From Mycobacterium simiae (lineage in GTDB: Bacteria > Actinomycetota > Actinomycetes > Mycobacteriales > Mycobacteriaceae): a stretch of DNA of 64,000 nucleotides. Positions 2,450 to 44,179 of this stretch are shown in pieces. Positions within the stretch are counted from its first letter, which is position 1. Each line of letters begins with the position of its first letter. The stretch covers positions 5,394,001 through 5,458,000 of the forward strand of contig NZ_AP022568.1 of assembly GCF_010727605.1 (NCBI RefSeq), written 5' to 3'. The position numbers and the translations under genes were made by a program. The notes below the pieces were generated by a model. It had not been told where the DNA came from. It worked only from the letters and a program-made list of their open reading frames with translations, and made no database searches.

Positions 2450-4024
2450 CTACCGGTCGTGCAGGATCTGGTAGGCCGCGTTGTAGCCGGGAGTAAACGT
2501 GATGCCGGGGCCGCCATGGCATCCCGCGCCGCCCAGGTAGAGGCCCTCGATCGGGATCGGCATGTCGAGAAAGCCCCTCGGGCCGGGCCGGTTGGGCCCC
2601 ATCAGATCCGGGTGCAGCAGACCGTGGCAGAAGTCGCCGGCGGGCGCACCGAACATCGTGTTCATGTGGTAGGGCGCGAAGGTGATATGACGGATCACGA
2701 TATCTTTGAAGTTCGGCGCGAATTTGGTGATCTTGTCGATAACCCGTTGTGCCATTTCGTTTTTCAGGTGTCCGTGTTGATCGCGGTCGACTTCGACCGG
2801 GAAGGCATAGGCGAATGCGCTCGCGGCGTGCTTGCCGGCTGGTGCCATCGCGGGATCGTGGACCGACGGAATCTGCATGCCCATCGACGGGTTGTCCGGA
2901 AGTAGGCCCTGCCGGCAGATCTCCCACTGGCGCTGCTGCTCTTCTGGTGAGCCGAAGATTCCGACCGACTGCTGCATGCCCTCTGCATTGAGAAACTCAT
3001 ACGGCGGCGCGAACTCCGGCAGACCGTCCAGTGCGAAATGTAGCTGCACGAATGACGCGCGATGGTCGCGCCCCGAGACGCGCGAGACCAATTCCGCCGG
3101 AATGTGTTCGGGTGCAATGAGTTCGGTGAGTGTGACGTCGGGCGAGAGATTGGACACCACGACCGGTGCCGAGATCGTCGAACCGTCCCGCAGTCGTACG
3201 CCGCACGCCTGCTGATTCTCGACCAGGATCTCCTCGACCTTGGCGCGAAAGCGGATCTCGCCGCCATGGAAGAGGAAAAGCTCGCGCAGGTGTTCGGTGA
3301 GCGCGCCGATGCCACCCTTGAGCTTGGTCATCATCGCGGTGCTGTCTGTGTCTTCTGGGGGCACCGCCAGCGCAAACGCCAGACAGGCGGCGCTGCCCGG
3401 GGTGTAAGGGCCGCGGTAGGTGGAATTGACGGCCAAAAACGCCAACATGCCGCGCATCACCGCGTGCCTGTCCCGGTCCGGTAGGTAGCGGTCGATCACG
3501 TCCATCGCCGAGCCGAACAGCATCTCGTGAATCGCTCGGCGCTCGGCGTCGTTGGTTGCGCAGGCGTACATTTCGTCGATCGTCTTGGGCCGCTGGCACA
3601 CGTCGAAGCGGCCGAGTGCCCGCGCGGGCGCCTGGGTCCAGCCGATCAGCTCGGCCATGCCCATGACGGCTTCCACGCCGTGCTTCTCGTTGAGGTGGGC
3701 CATCAGTTGCATCGGGTCGCGATAGAAGACCATCGGCTCTTCACCGTTTTCGCCGATGTTGACCGACATCACCTCGGGCTCGATCGCAGGCAGGGTGTCG
3801 AGTCCGAGGTCCTTGCTGAGTTGGCTTGCCATCGGGAATTGCACCGAGCCCGCGATCTCGTAGCGGAACCCGTCGATCAGTTCGACCGTCGCCGCCATGC
3901 CGCCCGCATAGGTGTTGGCTTCCAGGCACACGGTTCGCAGGCCGGCGCGCTGCAGGATCGCCGCAGCGGTCAAACCGTTATGCCCGGCACCCACCACGAT
4001 TGCGTCGTATTTCGTCGTGCTCAC
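2450..4024 (-). CDS. FAD-dependent oxidoreductase, phytoene-desaturase-like
   Basis: Flavoprotein of the CrtI/COG1233 class, 524 residues from the chosen start. The dinucleotide-binding motif VVGAGHNGLTAA opens the protein and is followed by LEANTYAGG. A C-terminal FAD motif (GAGCHGGPGITFTPGYNAA) ends it. These enzymes oxidise or isomerise C-C bonds in isoprenoids or lipids; no carotenoid genes are nearby, so the substrate is open. I start at the GTG before STTKYDAIVVGAG. The upstream in-frame ATG would put the N-terminus across an 18-bp operator palindrome shared with the divergent TetR gene. Repression by that TetR protein is the simplest inference. Confidence 0.8.
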   Translation of the reverse strand: MSTTKYDAIVVGAGHNGLTAAAILQRAGLRTVCLEANTYAGGMAATVELIDGFRYEIAGSVQFPMASQLSKDLGLDTLPAIEPEVMSVNIGENGEEPMVFYRDPMQLMAHLNEKHGVEAVMGMAELIGWTQAPARALGRFDVCQRPKTIDEMYACATNDAERRAIHEMLFGSAMDVIDRYLPDRDRHAVMRGMLAFLAVNSTYRGPYTPGSAACLAFALAVPPEDTDSTAMMTKLKGGIGALTEHLRELFLFHGGEIRFRAKVEEILVENQQACGVRLRDGSTISAPVVVSNLSPDVTLTELIAPEHIPAELVSRVSGRDHRASFVQLHFALDGLPEFAPPYEFLNAEGMQQSVGIFGSPEEQQRQWEICRQGLLPDNPSMGMQIPSVHDPAMAPAGKHAASAFAYAFPVEVDRDQHGHLKNEMAQRVIDKITKFAPNFKDIVIRHITFAPYHMNTMFGAPAGDFCHGLLHPDLMGPNRPGPRGFLDMPIPIEGLYLGGAGCHGGPGITFTPGYNAAYQILHDR

Positions 4025-11143: not shown

Positions 11144-11704
11144 ATGGGTGGAATACCGACTGCGACACGGATTGCGGTTGCGGGTCTGCTGATCACGGGG
11201 TGGGCCGCGGCCGCGGTCGTTGCCAATGCGGACCCGGACGAGACACACGGACCGGCTCCCGGCCCGGTGGCATCCCCATCGCCAGCGGCGTCACCGGCAC
11301 CCGCGACACCGTCCGCATCGCCATCACCCGGCGCCGCGCCGGCACCCGCGGCGCCGAAGACGGTTATGGACAAGGACGGTTTGTACGCCGTCGGCACCGA
11401 CATCGTGCCCGGCATCTACAGCAGCGCCGGCCCCATCGGCGACGGCACCTGCTACTGGAAGCGGACGTCCAACCCCGACGGTGCCCTGATCGATAACTCG
11501 CTCACCAAGAAGCCGCAGGTTGTCCGGATCGAGCCGACGGACAAGGCGTTCAAGACCGACGGTTGCCAGCCCTGGCAGCTGACCCCGGACGCCACACCGC
11601 CCCCGGACGTCGCCGGGCCGGTCGCCGGAGCCCAGGTCCAGGGCATCATCGGGGGTCTCAACGGCTTGCTCGCGCCGCACGGACAGCGCGTACCCGGTAC
11701 CTGA
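11144..11704 (+). CDS. Exported Pro/Ala-rich protein (Rv1906c type)
   Basis: A 186-residue secreted protein matching the position of Rv1906c. A signal peptide (about residues 1-31, ending NADPDE) is followed by a low-complexity Pro/Ser/Ala linker (about 35-72) and a compact domain with two cysteines (GDGTCYWKR and TDGCQPWQL) that may form a disulfide. The repeated PSPAASPAPATP linker is somewhat longer than I recall for the M. tuberculosis protein. Function is unknown. It is followed after 2 bases by aao. Confidence 0.8.
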   Translation: MGGIPTATRIAVAGLLITGWAAAAVVANADPDETHGPAPGPVASPSPAASPAPATPSASPSPGAAPAPAAPKTVMDKDGLYAVGTDIVPGIYSSAGPIGDGTCYWKRTSNPDGALIDNSLTKKPQVVRIEPTDKAFKTDGCQPWQLTPDATPPPDVAGPVAGAQVQGIIGGLNGLLAPHGQRVPGT

Positions 11705-11706
11705 CC

Positions 11707-12678
11707 GTGGCCGACGGCTCCAGCGCGCAGATCATCGTCGTCGGGGCCGGGGTCAGCGGACTGACATCGGCACTGTGCCTGGCCGAGGCCGGATGGCCGG
11801 TTAGGGTCTGGACGGCCGCACCGCCCCAGCAGACGACCTCGGTTGTTGCCGGTGCGGTATGGATTCCCCCGCGTCCCGTTGAGCGTGCCGTCGAAACCCT
11901 CGGGTGGACCGAGTTCTCGCTCGGGGTGTTTCGCGAACTCGCCACCGATCCCGACACCGGGGTGCGTCTGGCGCCGGCGCTGAGCGTCGGGGAATTGAGC
12001 GCGAGCGAGGCGATGTCGTCGGCCGCGCGGTTGATTCCGCAACTTCGGCCCGCGGAGCCAGCCGAGCTGCCGGACGGGTACGAGGTCGGTTTCCGGGCCA
12101 CCGTGCCGATGATCGACATGCCGCACTACCTCGAGTACCTCACGCGTCGGCTTGCCGCGGCCGGTTGCGAGATCGAGGAACATCCGGTGCGGTCGTTGGC
12201 CGAAGCCGCCGACGAGGCGCCGATCGTCATCAACTGCACTGGGCTCGGCGCGCGCACCCTGGTTGGTGACAACACCGTGCGGCCGTTGTTCGGCCAGCAT
12301 GTGGTGCTCGCGAATCCTGGTCTGCAGCAACTCTTTTTAGAGATCACTACCGGTCCGGAGTGGGCCTGCTACTTCCCGCACCCGCGTCGGGTGGTCTGTG
12401 GCGGAATCAGCATCGCCGATCGCTGGGACACCACCCCCGAGCCTGGCATCACCGATCGCATCCTGGAGCGCTGCCGCCGGGTCGAACCGAAGCTACGCCA
12501 TGCCGAGGTGGTCGAGACGATCGCCGGCCTACGGCCCGGCCGGCCCACTGTGCGACTGGAAGTCGAGACGCTCGGGACGGCGCGCTGCGTCCACAACTAC
12601 GGCCACGGTGGCAATGGCGTCACCCTGTCCTGGGGATGCGCCCGCGACGTGGTGCGCCTGGTCAGCCCTGCTCGCTGA
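11707..12678 (+). CDS. aao: D-amino acid oxidase
   Basis: FAD-dependent D-amino-acid oxidase (Rv1905c counterpart), 323 residues against about 320. It would deaminate D-amino acids to keto acids with release of hydrogen peroxide. The FAD fold motif IIVVGAGVSGLTSALCLAEAG opens the protein (split: VVGAGVSGLTSALC), VVAGAVWIPPRPVER follows, and the C-terminal signature is VHNYGHGGNGVTLSWG. The GTG start lies 2 bases after the Rv1906c-like stop, so the genes are coupled. The 3' end overlaps the convergent STAS gene by 17 bases. Confidence 0.88.
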   Translation: MADGSSAQIIVVGAGVSGLTSALCLAEAGWPVRVWTAAPPQQTTSVVAGAVWIPPRPVERAVETLGWTEFSLGVFRELATDPDTGVRLAPALSVGELSASEAMSSAARLIPQLRPAEPAELPDGYEVGFRATVPMIDMPHYLEYLTRRLAAAGCEIEEHPVRSLAEAADEAPIVINCTGLGARTLVGDNTVRPLFGQHVVLANPGLQQLFLEITTGPEWACYFPHPRRVVCGGISIADRWDTTPEPGITDRILERCRRVEPKLRHAEVVETIAGLRPGRPTVRLEVETLGTARCVHNYGHGGNGVTLSWGCARDVVRLVSPAR

Positions 12679-13084
12679 CCGGCGCGAGGGCCGTCTCGAC
12701 CGTCGCGTAGGTCGGCAGCAACCGGCGCAGCCCGCACGCGGCAATGGTTCGGGCCATCACGGGCTGGTGGGTGACCAGCCGTAGCGCGACACCGCGGTTG
12801 CGGCACTGCACCGCCTCGTGCGCAAGCGCGGCATAGCCGCACGAGCCCATGAAGTCGAGCTCGCGCACGTCGATGACGAATGGACCGGGCGCAACGATTT
12901 CAGCGGAGTTGCGGCTCAGCAGGTCTTGCCAGGTGCGCTCGTTACTGGCGTCGATGTCACCGCCGACCGTGATGACCACCGAGGAACCCGCCCGCTCGGC
13001 GACGGCGCGCAGACCACTCGGCTCGTCACCGACGTAGCCGCGGCCGTTGTGGGGCGGCGAAATTCCCCTCGCGGCAGTATCCAT
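12662..13084 (-). CDS. STAS-domain anti-sigma factor antagonist (Rv1904 type)
   Basis: A 140-residue single STAS-domain protein, at the position of Rv1904. Such proteins bind anti-sigma factors and are switched off by phosphorylation of a serine in the loop after the VIDVRELDF strand. Here that loop reads DFMGSCG, with Ser81 as the candidate site. The first 20 or so residues are low in structure. No anti-sigma kinase gene is adjacent, so its partner must be elsewhere. It converges with aao and overlaps it by 17 bases. Confidence 0.83.
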   Translation of the reverse strand: MDTAARGISPPHNGRGYVGDEPSGLRAVAERAGSSVVITVGGDIDASNERTWQDLLSRNSAEIVAPGPFVIDVRELDFMGSCGYAALAHEAVQCRNRGVALRLVTHQPVMARTIAACGLRRLLPTYATVETALAPVSEQG

Positions 13085-13588
13085 CTTCGCGACATCCCGT
13101 CGTCGTAGGCTGTTAGGGCGACGCCGCCCTTATCCCGAATAAGGTCGGCGGGGTCGTCATCAAACCGACCCCCGTCGGTTTTCGCGTCGCGGCCAAGCAT
13201 ATGTGGAATGGGTATTTCGCGGCATGAATTGTGCAAATCGATGAATTTCGCGTGGCCGCCGTACGGCCGAAGGACACTGAAACCCTTACTATTTCAGTAA
13301 CGGTAGCAATGACAAACCGAACCGGTGAAGCATCAGCGCCAAAGATCGGCCCGAGCCCGAGGCGCGGGACGCGCCCGACGCCGTTCATGCGGTGTTGTAC
13401 CGCTTTCCGGTATCCAACCCGATCGTCGCCGCGGGTTGATGGATACCGCTTATGACTACGCTGAGCAAATCACGGCCAACACACCGCCGGCCGTTTGCGA
13501 CCGAAACACGGCACACCAACCGGGTTTTCACGACCGAGGATGCCAACTGGCCCGCGCGTTCGCCGTGAAGCGACCAGCGCGGTGACGG
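13085..13588. other. About 500 bp with no supported gene
   Basis: Frames here have mixed, non-mycobacterial-looking codon choice and no family likeness on either strand. The stretch is less GC-rich than its neighbours around 13200-13330. It holds two structures listed separately: a T-tailed hairpin at 13162 and a 7-bp inverted repeat, ACTGAAA/TTTCAGT, spanning 13276-13298. Beyond these I see nothing. Confidence 0.6.
13162..13182 (+). terminator. Hairpin with short T run
   Basis: AAACCGAC, loop CCCC, then GTCGGTTT form a perfect 8-bp stem followed by another T. In plus-strand sense it resembles a short intrinsic terminator. No plus-strand gene ends directly before it, so its client is unclear. 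Confidence 0.45.
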
Positions 13589-39183: not shown

Positions 39184-39642
39184 ATGACAGACGTTTCTAT
39201 GATTAGAGTCGACGACGTGGTTCTCGGTATGTGGCAGGCGCTTTCGCGGCGAGACTGGGATGCGGTCAAGACGTTTCTGGCCGACGACTGCCTCTACGTC
39301 GACATGCCCGTCCCGGCAGTGTCGGCCCGGGGACCCGAGAACATCGTGACGCGACTCAAGATTGGGCTCGAGCCGTTGGCCGGCTACCAGAACCATGACG
39401 GCGTGCTGGTGTCCAACGGCACCGACGTGATGTACGAGCATTCCGAAACGTGGACGTTTGCCTCGGGTGAGCAAGGCGTGCTCCGATTCGTCACAGTACA
39501 TAAAGTGGTCGACGCCAAGATCACGGTGTGGAAAGACTATTGGGACATGAACAGCCTGATTAGTTTCGCGCCGCCGAATCACTTCGAGAACCTGGCGGCA
39601 GCAGATACGTCCTGGGTTTTCGATGCTTCAGGTCTGATCTGA
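39184..39642 (+). CDS. Limonene-1,2-epoxide hydrolase-like (SnoaL fold) protein
   Basis: A 152-residue NTF2-like protein similar to limonene epoxide hydrolases such as mycobacterial EphG. The N-terminal helix region VVLGMWQALSRRDWDAVKTFL, LADDCLYVDMP, the middle MYEHSETWTF and the later ITVWKDYWDMN (with W and D of the active-site set) support this. Opening of a hydrophobic epoxide is the likely reaction. The start is 64 bases from the divergent dienelactone hydrolase start, so both promoters lie in that gap. Confidence 0.72.
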   Translation: MTDVSMIRVDDVVLGMWQALSRRDWDAVKTFLADDCLYVDMPVPAVSARGPENIVTRLKIGLEPLAGYQNHDGVLVSNGTDVMYEHSETWTFASGEQGVLRFVTVHKVVDAKITVWKDYWDMNSLISFAPPNHFENLAAADTSWVFDASGLI

Positions 39643-39725: not shown

Positions 39726-39731
39726 TATGAT
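39726..39731 (+). promoter_or_regulatory. -10 element of micro-lipoprotein 1
   Basis: TATGAT sits at the left boundary of a leader that is conserved in copy 2, where TAGTAT stands at the matching place. A start just after it would give a 5' leader of about 145 nt. The leader (to 39880) ends with a hairpin CACCCGGC/GTCGGGTG (39833-39857) 23 bases before the ATG. No clear -35 is seen. Confidence 0.5.
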
Positions 39732-39880
39732 CTGCAGCGGCCGAATCGGGTCTGAATGCGGTGGTGGGCGCCTTCATGCCAGCTATGTGTTGTTCGGAGT
39801 CGGGAGCGGCCATTCTTATTCTCCTGACGCCGCACCCGGCCTGGCTTGAGTCGGGTGATACCTCGACGAACGGAGTGCCT

Positions 39881-39982
39881 ATGTCACGCCTAACTAGCAA
39901 AGTCACTATTGCCATGATCCTAGGTTTCACCGCCATAACGGCATCGGGTTGCTCACCGGTATTTTCGCTTTTGTCGTTTTAG
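39881..39982 (+). CDS. Micro-lipoprotein 1 (33 residues)
   Basis: First of four paralogous tiny lipoproteins. It reads MSRLTSKVTIAMILGFTAIT, then ASGC and only nine further residues (SPVFSLLSF). The design is a positively charged start (SR..SK), a hydrophobic core and a lipobox ASGC, so signal peptidase II would release a 10-residue lipopeptide starting at Cys24. GGAG stands 6 bases before the ATG. The match to the other copies over the whole signal segment, with different third-codon bases, shows that the frame is under selection. Role unknown; entericidin-like or signal lipopeptides are possibilities. Confidence 0.75.
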   Translation: MSRLTSKVTIAMILGFTAITASGCSPVFSLLSF

Positions 39983-40411
39983 GGCGTTGGCGTGGGAAGG
40001 CATTCGACGGTTCAGCAAAGAACTGAAACCCTCGATTCTTCGCGCTCGCATGAGTACCCGTAGTATGCACAAACAGTAATTCAGTGTCGGCGAATATGGC
40101 CGGTATTCGTGTGCTGGATGCTTGGCATGTACCGGGTACTGGGATTGCAATCCAGCAAAGTGATTGTCATCTACTGATCGACGGTTCTAGTACCAGGGCC
40201 GCCCGATTAGTGGCGGTCCCCTGCGGCCTGTGTGTTGCTGTGCGCGCTAAATAGCGTGTGCGCGTATGTATTTCACCAGGCGGCAGGCATGTGGCTGGCT
40301 CCGGACGGTTGCGGATGGCTGGGCAATCCAGCATGTCCGCGTCCGCTCTAGCAAATCAAACACATAGAAATTACCGGCGAGTAGTCGTGGAAGGTATGTA
40401 AGAGTTCGGGT
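39983..40411. other. Spacer between micro-lipoproteins 1 and 2
   Basis: No gene is supported. The palindrome GGATTGCAATCC (40142-40153) and a hairpin with arms CAGGGCCGCC and GGCGGTCCCCTG (40194-40223, one bulge) are the only structures. The hairpin could end transcription of copy 1, though it lies 210 bases beyond its stop. Confidence 0.5.
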
Positions 40412-40417
40412 TAGTAT
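40412..40417 (+). promoter_or_regulatory. -10 element of micro-lipoprotein 2
   Basis: TAGTAT occupies the place of TATGAT in copy 1. The leader that follows (40418-40571) is homologous to the copy 1 leader, including the block GGTGGGCGCCTTCA and CTCCTGACGCC. It also ends in a hairpin, CCCGGCTC/GAGCCGGG (40523-40544), 27 bases before the ATG. Confidence 0.5.
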
Positions 40418-40571
40418 CTGCACCGGCCGAATCTGGTTTGAATGCGATGGTGGGCGCCTTCAATCCGGCTATTAGTTGTTGGAGTCAGGACCGGCTATTT
40501 TGGTGCCTCCTGACGCCATGGACCCGGCTCCACACTGAGCCGGGCGCAATCGGGATGAAATGGAGTGTGTA

Positions 40572-40679
40572 ATGTCGCGTATCACCAGCAAAATCACTGT
40601 CGCCATAATCCTCGGGTTCACGGCCGTGGTGGCGACGGGGTGTACACCCGTTCTCTCGCTCATCACCGTCACTATGTAG
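40572..40679 (+). CDS. Micro-lipoprotein 2 (35 residues)
   Basis: Second copy of the family: MSRITSKITVAIILGFTAVV, then ATGC and eleven residues (TPVLSLITVTM). The lipidated Cys is residue 24, as in copy 1, so the mature lipopeptide has 12 residues. GGAG lies about 7 bases before the ATG. The conserved frame, aligned lipobox and duplicated leader make a chance frame unlikely. A 12-bp perfect GC hairpin follows 31 bases after the stop. Confidence 0.77.
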   Translation: MSRITSKITVAIILGFTAVVATGCTPVLSLITVTM

Positions 40680-40710
40680 GCAGCTGCTGAGCCTCGTAGC
40701 AAGAATGTGC

Positions 40711-40751
40711 CGGGCGCCCCGGGCAATCCCGATACCGGGCCGGGGCGCCCG
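40711..40751 (+). terminator. GC-rich hairpin after micro-lipoprotein 2
   Basis: CGGGCGCCCCGG and CCGGGGCGCCCG pair perfectly over 12 bp around a 17-base loop. There is no T run. Its place directly after the tiny gene suggests a terminator or 3'-end stabiliser. Confidence 0.55.
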
Positions 40752-40888
40752 CCAACACATGGCGCCTTGAAAGGTGTCACGTTTGCTCGGTGGCGCTGTG
40801 CCCGTTCAGCCCAACTCTGCGAAAGCCGGCCGATCACTGCCGCGTCCCCCCGATCGCTATGATCGCAGCGCGACGGGAGGGCGTTCGC

Positions 40889-41062
40889 ATGCCGCGGTTC
40901 GAGACCGAAATGGAAGTCTGCCCACACTGCCGACGGGCGGCGGAGGCGACCGTCGAATATGTGCGCGACGACGCCGGCAAGGTCCTGCGTAGGATCGTGC
41001 GGGACGTCCAGTGCCGACACACGGATTGCCCGGGCAGCGAAGTTCCGCCGCACTGGGGCTAG
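40889..41062 (+). CDS. Small zinc-ribbon protein
   Basis: A 57-residue protein with one four-cysteine metal site: CPHC near residue 11, and a second group C-x5-C (CRHTDC) about 30 residues later. Between them is a charged helix or strand (YVRDDAGKVLRRIVRDVQ). GGGAGG stands 8 bases before the ATG. A longer version from an upstream ATG is possible but adds an unrelated leader. Small ribbons of this sort often bind RNA, DNA or a partner protein. It lies alone between micro-lipoproteins 2 and 3. I do not recognise its family. Confidence 0.6.
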   Translation: MPRFETEMEVCPHCRRAAEATVEYVRDDAGKVLRRIVRDVQCRHTDCPGSEVPPHWG

Positions 41063-41379
41063 TCGCTAGTACTCCGTCAGGAGCGATCAAAGACTGCCAG
41101 CCGCCGCATCCCGCTGTGCGCCGACTAATCTCCCGGAACACGGTCTGGAAAACGGTATTGAGATCGGTTGATTATCAACAACATTCGTTTTCTCCATACC
41201 GTTAACTTGCGTGCAGCGGTAGAACCGTACCGGCAGAATGAATTTGGCAAAATATCTTGCGGCGATTTTCTCGAAAATGCTCGTGATCTTGGTCTTTCGC
41301 ATCGTATTGTACGTGTGTCTCGGGCAACACGATCGGCTCTCTGGTAACAGAAAAGCCTTGGACGAATGGGGGCAACACC
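41063..41379. other. Promoter and leader region of micro-lipoprotein 3
   Basis: No gene is supported. TAACTT (41203-41208) is a possible -10 followed by TGCAGCGG, which also occurs just after the -10 of copy 1 (copy 2 has TGCACCGG). That gives a leader of about 170 nt. Nearer the gene is TGTCTCGGGCAA (41316-41327), found again in the leader of copy 4, and a small hairpin GGCTCTCTG...CAGAAAAGCC. Confidence 0.45.
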
Positions 41380-41505
41380 GTGGCACGTCTCAGCAGTAAA
41401 ATCGTCGTCGCCTTTATGCTGGGCTTCACTGCCCTTTCGGCATCAGGGTGCACGATTCCTTTGACGATTGATCCGGGCGGTTCAGGTCTTACCTTCATCC
41501 CGTAA
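41380..41505 (+). CDS. Micro-lipoprotein 3 (41 residues)
   Basis: Third copy, GTG start: MARLSSKIVVAFMLGFTALS, then ASGC and 17 residues (TIPLTIDPGGSGLTFIP). Cys24 is again the lipobox cysteine, giving an 18-residue mature lipopeptide. GGGGG stands 8 bases before the GTG. Its mature part shares the pattern T-x-P-L-T-I-D with copy 4 on the opposite strand. A strong stem-loop follows 13 bases after the stop. Confidence 0.77.
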   Translation: MARLSSKIVVAFMLGFTALSASGCTIPLTIDPGGSGLTFIP

Positions 41506-41518
41506 TCGTCGTTAGCCA

Positions 41519-41560
41519 GGTCCGCGATAATCCCTGGGCGAGCAGGGACTATCGCGGACC
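41519..41560 (+). terminator. 18-bp stem-loop after micro-lipoprotein 3
   Basis: GGTCCGCGATAATCCCTG, loop GGCGAG, then CAGGGACTATCGCGGACC. Seventeen of eighteen positions pair (one A-C mismatch). No T run follows directly, but the sequence GGCTCTTC comes next. A terminator for copy 3 is the simplest reading. Confidence 0.65.
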
Positions 41561-41724
41561 GGCTCTTCTAGCAGCAGATCGGCATGCGAGGGGTATGCCG
41601 GCGTTGGCTAACCAGGTGACCGGGCCGGTCAGCGGCGGGAAACGTGGCCGCGCAATGCCATTTGTGGCCATTTAAGGCCCTTCGTGGCAATTCGTGGCCA
41701 TTCGTGCGCAACCGGCTATCCGCA

Positions 41725-41750
41725 GCCCGCCGAAGGCGGGCGCTCTTTTT
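41725..41750 (+). terminator. Intrinsic terminator with T run
   Basis: GCCCGCC, loop GAA, GGCGGGC, then GCTCTTTTT. In plus-strand sense this is a textbook intrinsic terminator. The T run overlaps the stop codon of the minus-strand micro-lipoprotein 4, so it protects that gene from plus-strand read-through and its stem can also end the minus-strand transcript. Confidence 0.75.
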
Positions 41751-41868
41751 ACGGAGTGCAGGTAAACGGGCTGCAATCGATGGTGAGCGGAACCGTGCAC
41801 CCCGACGTCGCGCTGGCGGTAAACGCAAGGATCAAAGCGACGATGAATTTACTGGTGTGGCGTGACAT
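41749..41868 (-). CDS. Micro-lipoprotein 4 (39 residues, opposite strand)
   Basis: Fourth copy, read on the minus strand: MSRHTSKFIVALILAFTASA, then TSGC and 15 residues (TVPLTIDCSPFTCTP). Cys24 is again the lipobox cysteine; the 16-residue mature part has two more cysteines that could form a disulfide. GGGGGAA lies about 5 bases before the ATG. The leader has TGTCTCGGGCAA (plus coordinates 41929-41940), shared with copy 3. Converging copies 3 and 4 are separated by two hairpins. Confidence 0.77.
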   Translation of the reverse strand: MSRHTSKFIVALILAFTASATSGCTVPLTIDCSPFTCTP

Positions 41869-42112
41869 GTCATTTCCCCCGTTCGGTTCAGACTGCTCCG
41901 TTGCCCGATATGGACTTCTATCGTCGACTTGCCCGAGACAACCAGTCTAAGTCGTCAAAGCTTAGTAGCCAACAGTTTTCGTTGCGTGGATCACCGGGCG
42001 CCAGTCCCGTCATCGCCGACAATTGCGCAATGCCCAGTGCTAAGAAGTTTGGTGGTCTGCCTGGATCTGCCCGTAACACGAAGCGCACCGTGCACACGGG
42101 AAAAGCAATTTG
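41869..42112. other. Leader of micro-lipoprotein 4 and cyclase 3' flank
   Basis: No gene is supported. The minus-strand promoter and leader of copy 4 must lie here; only the motif shared with copy 3 is identified. The right end is the 3' flank of the cyclase gene. Confidence 0.45.
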
Positions 42113-44179
42113 TTAGGACGCCAAGTCGTGCAAAACGCACAGCCGCACCGGGTCGCGCTTTCCTTTGACTTTCACCGACCCGTGTCTGCTCACCCGAGCG
42201 CTTGGGCCGAGTGCCGCGCAGGTGTTGGGGCCGACAACCACCTGACCGGGCTCGGCCAGGTTCTGCAGCCGGGCCGCCAGGTTCATGGTGTCCCCGATCG
42301 CCGTGAAGCTACGCATTTCCTCGGCGCCGATATTTCCGACCAGCGCTGGCCCGGTGTTGATCCCGACGCGGAACCGCGGCCAGTCGGCGTGCCCGCGTGC
42401 CGCACGCTCGACGACATCGTGCAGGGCCAGTCCGGTCCGGGCAGCCCGCAGCGCGTGATCGGACTGCCGCGCCGGGGCGCCCCAAATAGCTGTCACGGCG
42501 TCACCGACGAACTGCAGCACGGTGCCACCGGCGTCGAGAATGATCGGGACCACAGCGCCGTAGTAGGTGTTCAACATCGTGACCACCTGGTCGGGCGACG
42601 TCGCTTCGGTGAACGGCGTGAAGCCGTGCAGGTCGGCCATCAACACGGTGACCTCGGTGACAGCACCGCCGAGCCCGGCCTGATCGGGGTCGGCTAGCAG
42701 TGCCGTCGCGACCGCTGGCGACATGTAGCTGCGAAACAGACCGTCGAGGTGGTGGTAGAGGCGGGCGTTCTCCAACGCGATCGAGGACTGGGTGGCGAAA
42801 GAGCGCAACAGTGCAACGTCGGCGTCGGCGAATGGGCCGTCGGCGCGATACGCCTCGATCACTCCGGCGAGTTGCCCTTTGACCATCAGGGGCAGCTCCA
42901 ACGGATCATCGCCGGGCGCCGTGTCGGCGAAGCCGAGTTCGCTGTCGCGCACGATACCAAGGCGAAATTGGTCGCCGGGGAAGGCTTCAGCGATGGCGGC
43001 CATTACTCGATCCAGTAGTGCGTCCTCGTCCTGGATGACGCTGGCCTCGCGCCCGACGGACACCAGACTTCGCAGCTTGCGCACGCGTTCGCGCTCCGCG
43101 CCCAGCGCCTCGGCTCCCCGTTTGAGCACCGCGACCTGCTGTTCGGACAGCTCGAAGCGGTCGGCCAGCCGCGCCGCGACCGCGCCGATGGCGACGTGTT
43201 CACCCTGCTCGCGGCGCTGGAGCAGGTCGACCATCTCTTCGAGCGCCGCGGCATAGTCGCGACGCAGGTCCGCGATCGTCTGCTGGGTGGCCAGCGCATC
43301 GAATAGGCCCCGCACCGAGCCTTCCCGACGGAACTGCACCCGCGCGCTATAGGCGATGAAGCAGAAGGCCATCGTCATCAGCAAATGCCACAGCCACCAC
43401 GAAGCGTGCCAGCTCATGCCGAGCGCCAGGGCCACCGACGCCTCGGCCAGCAGCACGAATGCGGTGAGTACAGAAACGACGACGACCGCGGGGCGCCGCC
43501 GATAAATCGGAAAGTAGACCAACGCCGCGGCGGCGAATAGCACACCACCGGCCAACGCCCCCACTTGCTCGATGTCCTCGAGCTCATCCTGGTTTTGCAG
43601 CCGGTCGAGCGCACCGCAGAGGACCAACGCCGCGGTGGCGACCATCAGGAACCACACCAGCGCCGACAGCGGCCGGCGCAGTGACCAGAGTCGGGCGTTT
43701 CGCGCCGGGGTGAACTTCGCCGACGAGGCCAGCGCGACGGCGCCGGCCACCACCAGCCCCATTCGCGTCGGCAACATGAACTCCGCGTCGGAGGTATCCA
43801 TCAGCACCCCCGGGGTGAACAAGGCATGCACACCGAAAAAGCCGGCCGTCGTGATGAAGACGAGCGAGACCAACCAGAGCCGGGCGTCGTCACGGGTGCG
43901 AGCCGCTCGGCCGATCAGGACGCCCAGCACCACACTCACCACGGATGCGGACAGCACCAACACGAAATGCGCGAGGCGGTTGTCCCATTCCAGGTCGACC
44001 CTGGGTCTGTCGAGCAACAGCCACAACGCGACCATCGGAAGCGCCATGTGCATGAACCAGTTCGCCGTGCGCACCCGCGATCCCGGCCGTGCAGTGGCCC
44101 CCCTCAACGACAACCCCCTTGCCACCGGTATCGCTTGCTTCACCTTCGGCTCGTTGTATTGCAGCAAACCGACGGACAA
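42113..44179 (-). CDS. Membrane-bound class III adenylate cyclase with GAF domain
   Basis: A 688-residue sensor cyclase. About seven hydrophobic helices occupy residues 40-285, then a coiled-coil linker with a heptad-like helix (about 300-375, EQQVAVLKRGAEALGAERER), a GAF domain (about 375-490) and a C-terminal class III cyclase domain. The metal aspartates are in LMADLHGFTPF and FVGDAVTAIWG, and the transition-state Asn and Arg are in GDTMNLAARLQ. It should make cAMP in response to a membrane or GAF ligand. The TTG start is tentative (GGGGAA 9 bases upstream); GTG 12 codons later is an alternative. Confidence 0.82.
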   Translation of the reverse strand: MSVGLLQYNEPKVKQAIPVARGLSLRGATARPGSRVRTANWFMHMALPMVALWLLLDRPRVDLEWDNRLAHFVLVLSASVVSVVLGVLIGRAARTRDDARLWLVSLVFITTAGFFGVHALFTPGVLMDTSDAEFMLPTRMGLVVAGAVALASSAKFTPARNARLWSLRRPLSALVWFLMVATAALVLCGALDRLQNQDELEDIEQVGALAGGVLFAAAALVYFPIYRRRPAVVVVSVLTAFVLLAEASVALALGMSWHASWWLWHLLMTMAFCFIAYSARVQFRREGSVRGLFDALATQQTIADLRRDYAAALEEMVDLLQRREQGEHVAIGAVAARLADRFELSEQQVAVLKRGAEALGAERERVRKLRSLVSVGREASVIQDEDALLDRVMAAIAEAFPGDQFRLGIVRDSELGFADTAPGDDPLELPLMVKGQLAGVIEAYRADGPFADADVALLRSFATQSSIALENARLYHHLDGLFRSYMSPAVATALLADPDQAGLGGAVTEVTVLMADLHGFTPFTEATSPDQVVTMLNTYYGAVVPIILDAGGTVLQFVGDAVTAIWGAPARQSDHALRAARTGLALHDVVERAARGHADWPRFRVGINTGPALVGNIGAEEMRSFTAIGDTMNLAARLQNLAEPGQVVVGPNTCAALGPSARVSRHGSVKVKGKRDPVRLCVLHDLAS

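Follow-up and report, generated by a model that had tools for sequence, protein, structure and literature searches.

Very short prolipoprotein-like genes in a Mycobacterium simiae island belong to a dispersed family retained by selection on the peptide

A 2.5 kb interval of the Mycobacterium simiae chromosome raises the question of whether four very short reading frames within it are genes and, if so, what their products do. The interval, called the island here, lies in a 64,000-nucleotide (nt) stretch of DNA (contig NZ_AP022568.1, positions 5,394,001 to 5,458,000; 'the window', in whose numbering positions are given) between a SnoaL/limonene-epoxide-hydrolase-like gene on the left (39184–39642) and a membrane adenylate/guanylate cyclase gene on the right (42113–44179, minus strand). 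An earlier note, made from the letters of the window alone, had described the frames as a family of lipoprotein micro-genes. All four were confirmed where it had placed them, with Cys as residue 24 in each and mature parts of 10, 12, 18 and 16 residues in copies 1–4; copy 4 is read from the minus strand and its first base is 41868. Comparison with other genomes shows the four frames to be members of a dispersed prolipoprotein-like family that is retained by selection on the peptide. The family appears to consist of short export peptides which are probably lipid-anchored to the cell envelope.

A Gram-positive lipoprotein pattern was matched by 16 of the 661 start-to-stop frames of 30–45 codons in the window, six of the 16 being the four genes with alternative starts, so that the lipobox pattern by itself is weak evidence. 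A family profile run over the window gave the four frames E values of 1.7e-14 to 1.6e-20 and the next-best frame 9.2. As this profile had been built with the four frames, the independent evidence comes from relatives, which carry like frames in the same interval of their genomes and more than 100 further members. The interval holds four or five such frames in M. sherrisii, Mycobacterium sp. 1100029.7, M. triplex, M. ahvazicum and M. montefiorense, and the island is present too in genomes G121, G143, G277, G361 and G364. The cyclase of the window is closest to that of M. sherrisii (90% identity, the best among 15 Mycobacterium loci with a species or strain name), which places the window within or near the M. 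simiae complex.

The collected loci contained 148 distinct DNA copies, a few of them doubtful, which were grouped by mature-part pattern into four island types (A1, 17 copies; A2, 14; A3, 12; A4, nine, with one more placed under 'other') and another six groups, B–G; 27 copies, two or three of them doubtful members, lay outside the ten groups. The ratio of nonsynonymous to synonymous substitution rates (dN/dS) was 0.18–0.30 in nine groups and 0.41 in group G; by island type it was 0.22 (A1), 0.23 (A2), 0.21 (A3) and 0.18 (A4). When the same DNA was read in the other forward frames, the ten groups gave 0.80–2.56 (+1) and 1.77–5.06 (+2). Among syntenic orthologues the synonymous rate dS was 0.54–0.97 for the island copies versus 0.55–0.64 for the cyclase, SnoaL and dienelactone-hydrolase-like genes, and dN/dS was 0.17–0.21 versus 0.11–0.16 for three neighbour genes. 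Since the island copies match or exceed the neighbours in dS, the constraint lies on the protein, with no extra constraint on the DNA. By this measure the island copies evolve like ordinary proteins, somewhat less constrained.

The earlier note had argued from conserved signal peptides combined with short, divergent mature parts. Divergence was borne out between paralogues; between orthologues the mature parts are mostly conserved. Their dN/dS was 0.10–0.25 in nine of the ten groups and 0.50 in group G, and it was at or below the signal ratio in six groups and above it in four (A2, C, F and G). The argument was not supported in that form, since in the island orthologue sets the mature parts (0.09–0.20) were at least as constrained as the signals (0.18–0.29), and more so in four sets of four. 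Moreover, in the one ordinary twin-arginine (Tat) lipoprotein compared, the signal was equally constrained (dN/dS 0.12; two of its nine aligned rows lack the signal), so that a conserved family signal is not special.

The family extends well beyond the single island of the earlier note, to several separate syntenic places (Table 1, groups B–G; neighbour genes were named by Pfam on one representative per neighbour cluster). The profile of the four frames matched 10 of the 15 named Mycobacterium genomes and, at E ≤ 1e-3, 34 of 248 genus genomes; a 34-member profile matched, at E ≤ 1e-5, 52 of the 396 genus genomes sampled and, at E ≤ 1e-3, ten of the 15 with names, with up to ten matches per genome, some weak. 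The 248- and 396-genome samples overlap, and the best 30 and best 18 candidates per genome were scored, respectively. The named genomes without a match were Mycobacterium sp. 852002-51057, sp. 1423905.2 and three M. asiaticum records. In an order-wide sample five of 298 genomes matched. Four of them (G003, G074, G154 and G277) also belong to the genus sample; the remaining match is weak, partial and within a 704-residue frame. Among 5.8 billion proteins searched, 88 relatives came up at E ≤ 1e-3. Most of these are nameless; the names given include hypothetical, uncharacterized, lipoprotein, putative membrane protein and ORFan, and the species include M. triplex, M. lentiflavum, M. intracellulare, M. 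shigaense and M. numidiamassiliense. Judged by these profile matches, the number of conserved copies reaches about ten in some slow-growing mycobacteria. The idea of a partner gene that recurs as neighbour was rejected: in the loci compared, the flanking genes differ from site to site, and no fixed partner gene therefore adjoins the family. In loci L058 and L072, two family sites adjoin genes of one BLAST cluster in differing relative orientation, the Pfam-tested member of which is a LigD-type primase-polymerase.

Peptide anatomy was counted over 145 members, after three of the 148 copies had been dropped (a decayed 95-residue frame in L003, a 175-residue ordinary lipoprotein in L136 and a start-less frame in L179); doubtful members retained were L083, which lacks the lipobox Cys, and L132 (23 bits). 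The motif [GAS]C stands at the predicted cleavage site, near residue 24, in 144 of the 145 intact members, and the signal has 23 residues in 141 of these 144. A short basic n-region, with K or R at position 7 in 142, is followed by a hydrophobic core and then the Cys. Across paralogues the signals are alike (K7 in 137, L14 in 138 and A18 in 129 of the 144). Most members have 33–43 residues overall and the mature part has 10–20. The mature parts contain no Lys and two Arg in 2216 residues, with 101 Asp/Glu across the 144 members; ten lipoprotein-like frames of the same loci, a small control set that includes doubtful frames and close orthologues, contain six Lys and eight Arg in 170 residues. 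The mature part has one Cys in 61 members, three in 83 and never two, in eleven spacings. Once the +1 Cys is subtracted, none or two remain, a parity that points to lipidation of the first Cys and, in some members, a disulfide loop between the other two.

The reading that we favour, with slightly better than even confidence, is that these are separately transcribed micro-lipoproteins whose anchored peptide acts on a partner in the envelope. Each gene would be transcribed alone, and the basic N-terminus and hydrophobic core would route the product through Sec. Lgt would add diacylglycerol to Cys24 and LspA would cut before it; the resulting lipopeptide of 10–20 residues would stay in the envelope, where its C-terminal sequence would matter and where two further cysteines, if present, would close a small disulfide loop. 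Held there by its lipid, each conserved peptide would act on a conserved partner in the envelope as ligand or regulator.

Several observations weigh against this reading. Position −3 of the lipobox is Ala in 104 of the 144 members, Thr in 27, Ser in eight, Val in three, Gly in one and Met in one, never Leu or Ile; without Leu at −3 the lipobox is not the textbook one. An A-x-G sequence before the cleavage site would also suit signal peptidase I. A looser lipoprotein pattern matches 137 of the 145 members and misses eight, and a stricter one misses 37. The strict lipobox [LVI][ASTVI][GAS]C, as given in PMC7296081, is agreed with at −3 only by the three Val members of the 144. The Cys-parity argument has few independent origins behind it (nine to 21 mature-part clusters, depending on the threshold). 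The members were gathered by peptide profile, which biases the family-wide dN/dS toward conservation, and the dN/dS values are sums over non-independent pairs. In the reverse frame −1 the ratio is also low (0.25–0.51), the shadow that third codon positions usually cast. In the comparison with M. sherrisii, the nearest relative, copies 3 and 4 seem less constrained: of 13 nonsynonymous differences in copy 3, 12 fall in the mature part (34.7 sites; proportion of nonsynonymous differences, pN, 0.35), and copy 4 has eight nonsynonymous versus five synonymous differences. Finally, 344 of the 396 sampled genus genomes gave no match at E ≤ 1e-5 among the best 18 candidates scored for each.

It is unlikely that the signal peptide itself is the product, with an S2P-type protease releasing a hydrophobic pheromone after LspA cleavage and the mature stub being a by-product. 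The similarity of the signals across paralogues at K7, L14 and A18, their constraint in the island groups and the four groups in which the signal is the more constrained part all speak for such a pheromone. Enterococcal pheromones derive from the signal peptides of ordinary lipoproteins, and here too a peptide product could derive from a lipoprotein precursor; unlike theirs, the mature parts of this family are constrained as well. They are the more constrained part in all four island orthologue sets and retain their paired Cys, and the Tat lipoprotein shows that an ordinary signal can be as constrained. Pheromones or toxins that diversify to match receptors are opposed by the conservation of each type across species.

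An entericidin-like or type I toxin, a membrane-active peptide for self-killing or competition restrained by an antidote or antisense RNA, is improbable. The products are small, begin with a hydrophobic segment and are encoded in multiple copies in tandem and convergent layout, with a structured leader on copies 1 and 2, all of which would suit a toxin. Their uncharged-to-acidic mature parts are, however, unlike cationic lytic peptides, there is no significant Pfam or NCBIfam match, the best PHROGs match (E 0.0057) is to a family without known function, and the sequences are conserved across species, not diversified. Synonymous sites of the island copies are unrestrained, so that the constraint expected from an overlapping antisense RNA is not seen. 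Entericidins A and B are very short lipoproteins with little mature sequence and small gene copies that lie adjacent. Short lipoproteins, a small mature part and side-by-side copies are common to both; the present family differs in showing no sequence match to them, in its mature parts of 10–20 residues without Lys and often with paired Cys, and in its several dispersed sites. Atu8019 of Agrobacterium, a 53-residue entericidin-annotated surface lipoprotein, is described as non-lytic and linked to vesicle docking (PMC7296081). It offers a model for a non-toxic surface role and indicates that micro-lipoproteins can have such roles; it differs in its 32-residue mature part and in belonging to Gram-negative outer-membrane vesicles, and no family common to it and the present peptides was found.

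Also improbable are secreted, non-lipidated micro-peptides released by signal peptidase I with a free N-terminal Cys. Residue −3 is Ala, Thr or Ser in 139 of the 144 members and never Leu, and −1 is Gly or Ala in 143, in agreement with the rule for that enzyme; the invariant +1 Cys and the parity of one or three Cys are what lipidation predicts. Lipopeptides directed at animal or protozoan receptors such as TLR2 are very unlikely. Receptor action is a general property of bacterial lipopeptides, and the carriers include M. triplex and M. genavense, both opportunists; TLR2 reads the lipid and the first residues, which would leave the conserved C-terminal ends and the paired Cys unexplained, and most sampled genus genomes have no match. 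The null reading of the earlier note, chance frames within a duplicated non-coding element, is hardly credible: copies 1 and 2 do sit in a repeated, structured element, but the frames are conserved in relatives with a bias against nonsynonymous change, selection is frame-specific in ten groups, synonymous sites in the island are unconstrained and the element is absent from eight of the ten groups.

Copies 1 and 2 carry a structured leader that the earlier note had not mentioned; in the favoured reading it would add a layer of control to these two genes. The two copies share an upstream 72-nt direct repeat (85% identical), and an RNA model matched the copy 1 leader at 39730–39881 (142.9 bits; this leader had been used to build the model). 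Types A1 and A2 carry a leader of ∼150 nt, at the island and elsewhere in G007, G154 and G247; one A2-type copy of G247 is without it. The consensus fold of 23 of the 30 extracted leaders (A1 and A2 copies total 31) has 35 pairs, nine of which show one or more compensatory double changes, a count inflated by the relatedness of the leaders, but a covariation term of only −0.97 kcal/mol. The model was run on 20 genomes, namely 13 of the 15 named (M. asiaticum G008 and G011 were left out) plus seven further carriers; 16 of the 20 matched at E ≤ 0.1, with 38 rows. The 33 rows with E < 1e-8, from 13 genomes, all lie directly before or inside A1/A2-type gene clusters by coordinates; the remaining five are weak, and one of these falls in the island of M. 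genavense, which has decayed. A wider regulon was not supported, as no strong copy away from A1/A2-type genes appeared among the scored candidates in the 20 genomes; the best 150 of ∼3000–4000 first-look candidates were scored per genome, so that a distant copy could be missed.

An open reading frame in the leader of copies 1 and 2 (MVGAF..CCSESGA) was rejected because its start, frame and stop vary between orthologues, and the element is therefore read as RNA and not as a leader peptide. A 73-residue in-frame extension of copy 1 was rejected on the same ground. Mycobacterial small proteins, among them poly-Cys leader frames with a regulatory role, were reportedly described by Shell in 2015 and Canestrari in 2020; the present genes resemble them as short mycobacterial frames that are easily overlooked by annotation, and differ from the poly-Cys leader frames in that the upstream frame is unconserved.

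A sigma-70 scan of the island found one site versus 1.4 expected; at this chance level the promoter claims rest on conservation. The motif TGTCTCGGGCAA lies upstream of both copies 3 and 4, in opposite orientation, and GTGTCTCGGGCA is present in 12 of 12 aligned A3 orthologues. At the promoter column of copy 4, TAnnnT was read by eye in eight of nine aligned A4 orthologues. Each site examined has its own conserved upstream block: TTGAA[AT] and a TAnnGT hexamer ∼17 nt apart at site D, and conserved −10-like hexamers at sites C, E and F, as read by eye from alignments of at most nine rows per site for the further sites. Of 146 starts, 142 have a ribosome-site-like four-mer ahead of them when the test is permissive. 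Seven terminator-like sites were found versus 2.2 expected, and downstream hairpins are only mildly enriched family-wide (z over 145 members with 12 shuffles each: mean −1.6, median −0.9). Downstream of copy 1 no hairpin was better than the shuffles (z +1.0), and that of copy 4 reached only z −0.9. Between copies 3 and 4, at 41657–41702, lies a tandem of four imperfect 10-nt units (GCCATTTGTG-like).

Table 1. Features of the island and sites of the further family groups (positions in the window)
Feature	Positions	Strand	Basis and remarks
Copy 1, −10-like TATGAT (39726–39731) and structured 5′ leader	39726–39880	+	Direct repeat with copy 2, alignments, fold; presumed transcript start
Micro-lipoprotein gene copy 1	39881–39982	+	Type A1; 33 residues; ATG; mature CSPVFSLLSF
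Copy 2, −10-like TAGTAT (40412–40417) and structured 5′ leader	40412–40571	+	Direct repeat, fold, RNA model
Micro-lipoprotein gene copy 2	40572–40679	+	Type A2; 35 residues; ATG; mature CTPVLSLITVTM
Stable hairpin (possible transcript end), 28 nt beyond copy 2	40708–40754		Inverted repeat; best 42-nt window −35 kcal/mol, z −6.4 (12 shuffles)
57-residue frame, two Cys pairs (CPHC ... CRHTDC), zinc-ribbon-like	40889–41062	+	Between copies 2 and 3; tblastn
Motif TGTCTCGGGCAA	41316–41332	+	Upstream of copy 3, near presumed transcript start
Micro-lipoprotein gene copy 3	41380–41505	+	Type A3; 41 residues; GTG; mature CTIPLTIDPGGSGLTFIP
Hairpin 13 nt after copy 3	41519–41560		Inverted repeat, 18-nt arms 94% complementary; −29 kcal/mol, z −5.0 (12 shuffles)
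Terminator-like hairpin and T tail	41725–41741	+	Between convergent copies 3 and 4
Micro-lipoprotein gene copy 4	41749–41868	-	Type A4; 39 residues; ATG; mature CTVPLTIDCSPFTCTP, with two additional Cys
Promoter-like TTGGCT-17-TAGACT of copy 4	41944–41972	-	Pattern match
Group B, 14 copies			Own site between TetR regulator and pyridine-nucleotide oxidoreductase
Group C, 15 copies			Own site between LigD-type primase-polymerase and DUF2961 gene
Group D, 14 copies			Own site beside O-methyltransferase; in some loci also PPE gene
Group E, 8 copies			Own site near ribonucleotide reductase small chain and DUF3349
Group F, 11 copies			Own site between HerA-type helicase and L,D-transpeptidase
Group G, 7 copies			Own site between rhomboid-like gene and gene of primase-polymerase cluster

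Judged from the loci compared, the content of the island turns over between genomes. In M. genavense (L015, ∼12200–13400) it is partly decayed: two copies are left, one with a TTG start, types A1 and A2 were not found and a weak leader match remains. In four other named genomes (L005, L006, L009 and L014), with both flanking genes in the stretch, the gap of 0.5–7.4 kb contains no copy. A further A1-like island copy survives intact in M. ahvazicum and G121; in M. triplex, M. montefiorense and G364 it has decayed or diverged, and G277 and G361 retain leader remnants only; type A4 was not found in the M. ahvazicum and G361 islands. In L001 (12311–12808), and also in L142, the mature parts of copies 3 and 4 within one genome have the same first half (CTFPVTI), where other species differ, and this half looks as if it had been copied between the convergent genes. 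The 57-residue frame, likewise absent from the earlier note, is conserved with 73–89% identity in all ten other island loci (L001–L004, L010 and L141–L145; tblastn) and interrupted in M. genavense. It gave no tblastn match in the compared stretches, as distinct from the whole genomes, of the named loci without the island, and no NCBIfam model matches it.

The paralogous, protein-coding, lipoprotein-like family proposed in the earlier note is supported by this comparison. Small lipoproteins are known as a kind; by the searches made, the family of the four frames matches no curated Pfam or NCBIfam model (best NCBIfam E 0.022; in Pfam at E ≤ 1 none for the four of the window and one weak match, YqgB at 0.063, among 34 members). 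The PHROGs match already given and the best PDB sequence match (E 0.095) offered nothing usable. The island DNA had no blastn match in a plasmid collection, which was not searched by protein, and a search of viral contigs with A1 gave 38 pattern stretches, none confirmed by tblastn, a weak test given the very short query. Rfam found only tRNAs on 20 paralogue loci; elsewhere in the window, at 11484–11692 on the plus strand, it matched the Mycobacterium small RNA npcTB_6715 (RF02886, 118.7 bits). No account of such a family was found among the literature matches listed, a scope that excludes preprints, many subscription papers and supplements. A transcriptome study of M. avium maps 10 intergenic small RNAs (PMC3774663).

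These frames add a family of very small, selected genes to the non-tuberculous mycobacteria. As the mature part lacks Lys and contains hardly any Arg, digestion with trypsin would give no mature peptide of use, a possible explanation for the oversight of the products in standard proteomics. The predicted products are short enough for synthesis, so that the questions of lipidation, disulfide and partner are directly testable. As a bolder and unlikely extension of the favoured reading, a panel of up to about ten lipid-anchored, partly disulfide-looped micro-peptides might serve a slow-growing mycobacterial clade as surface ligands with which it tunes envelope sensors or recognises neighbours. 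If true, this would be a peptide-ligand layer without description for mycobacteria in the literature searched.

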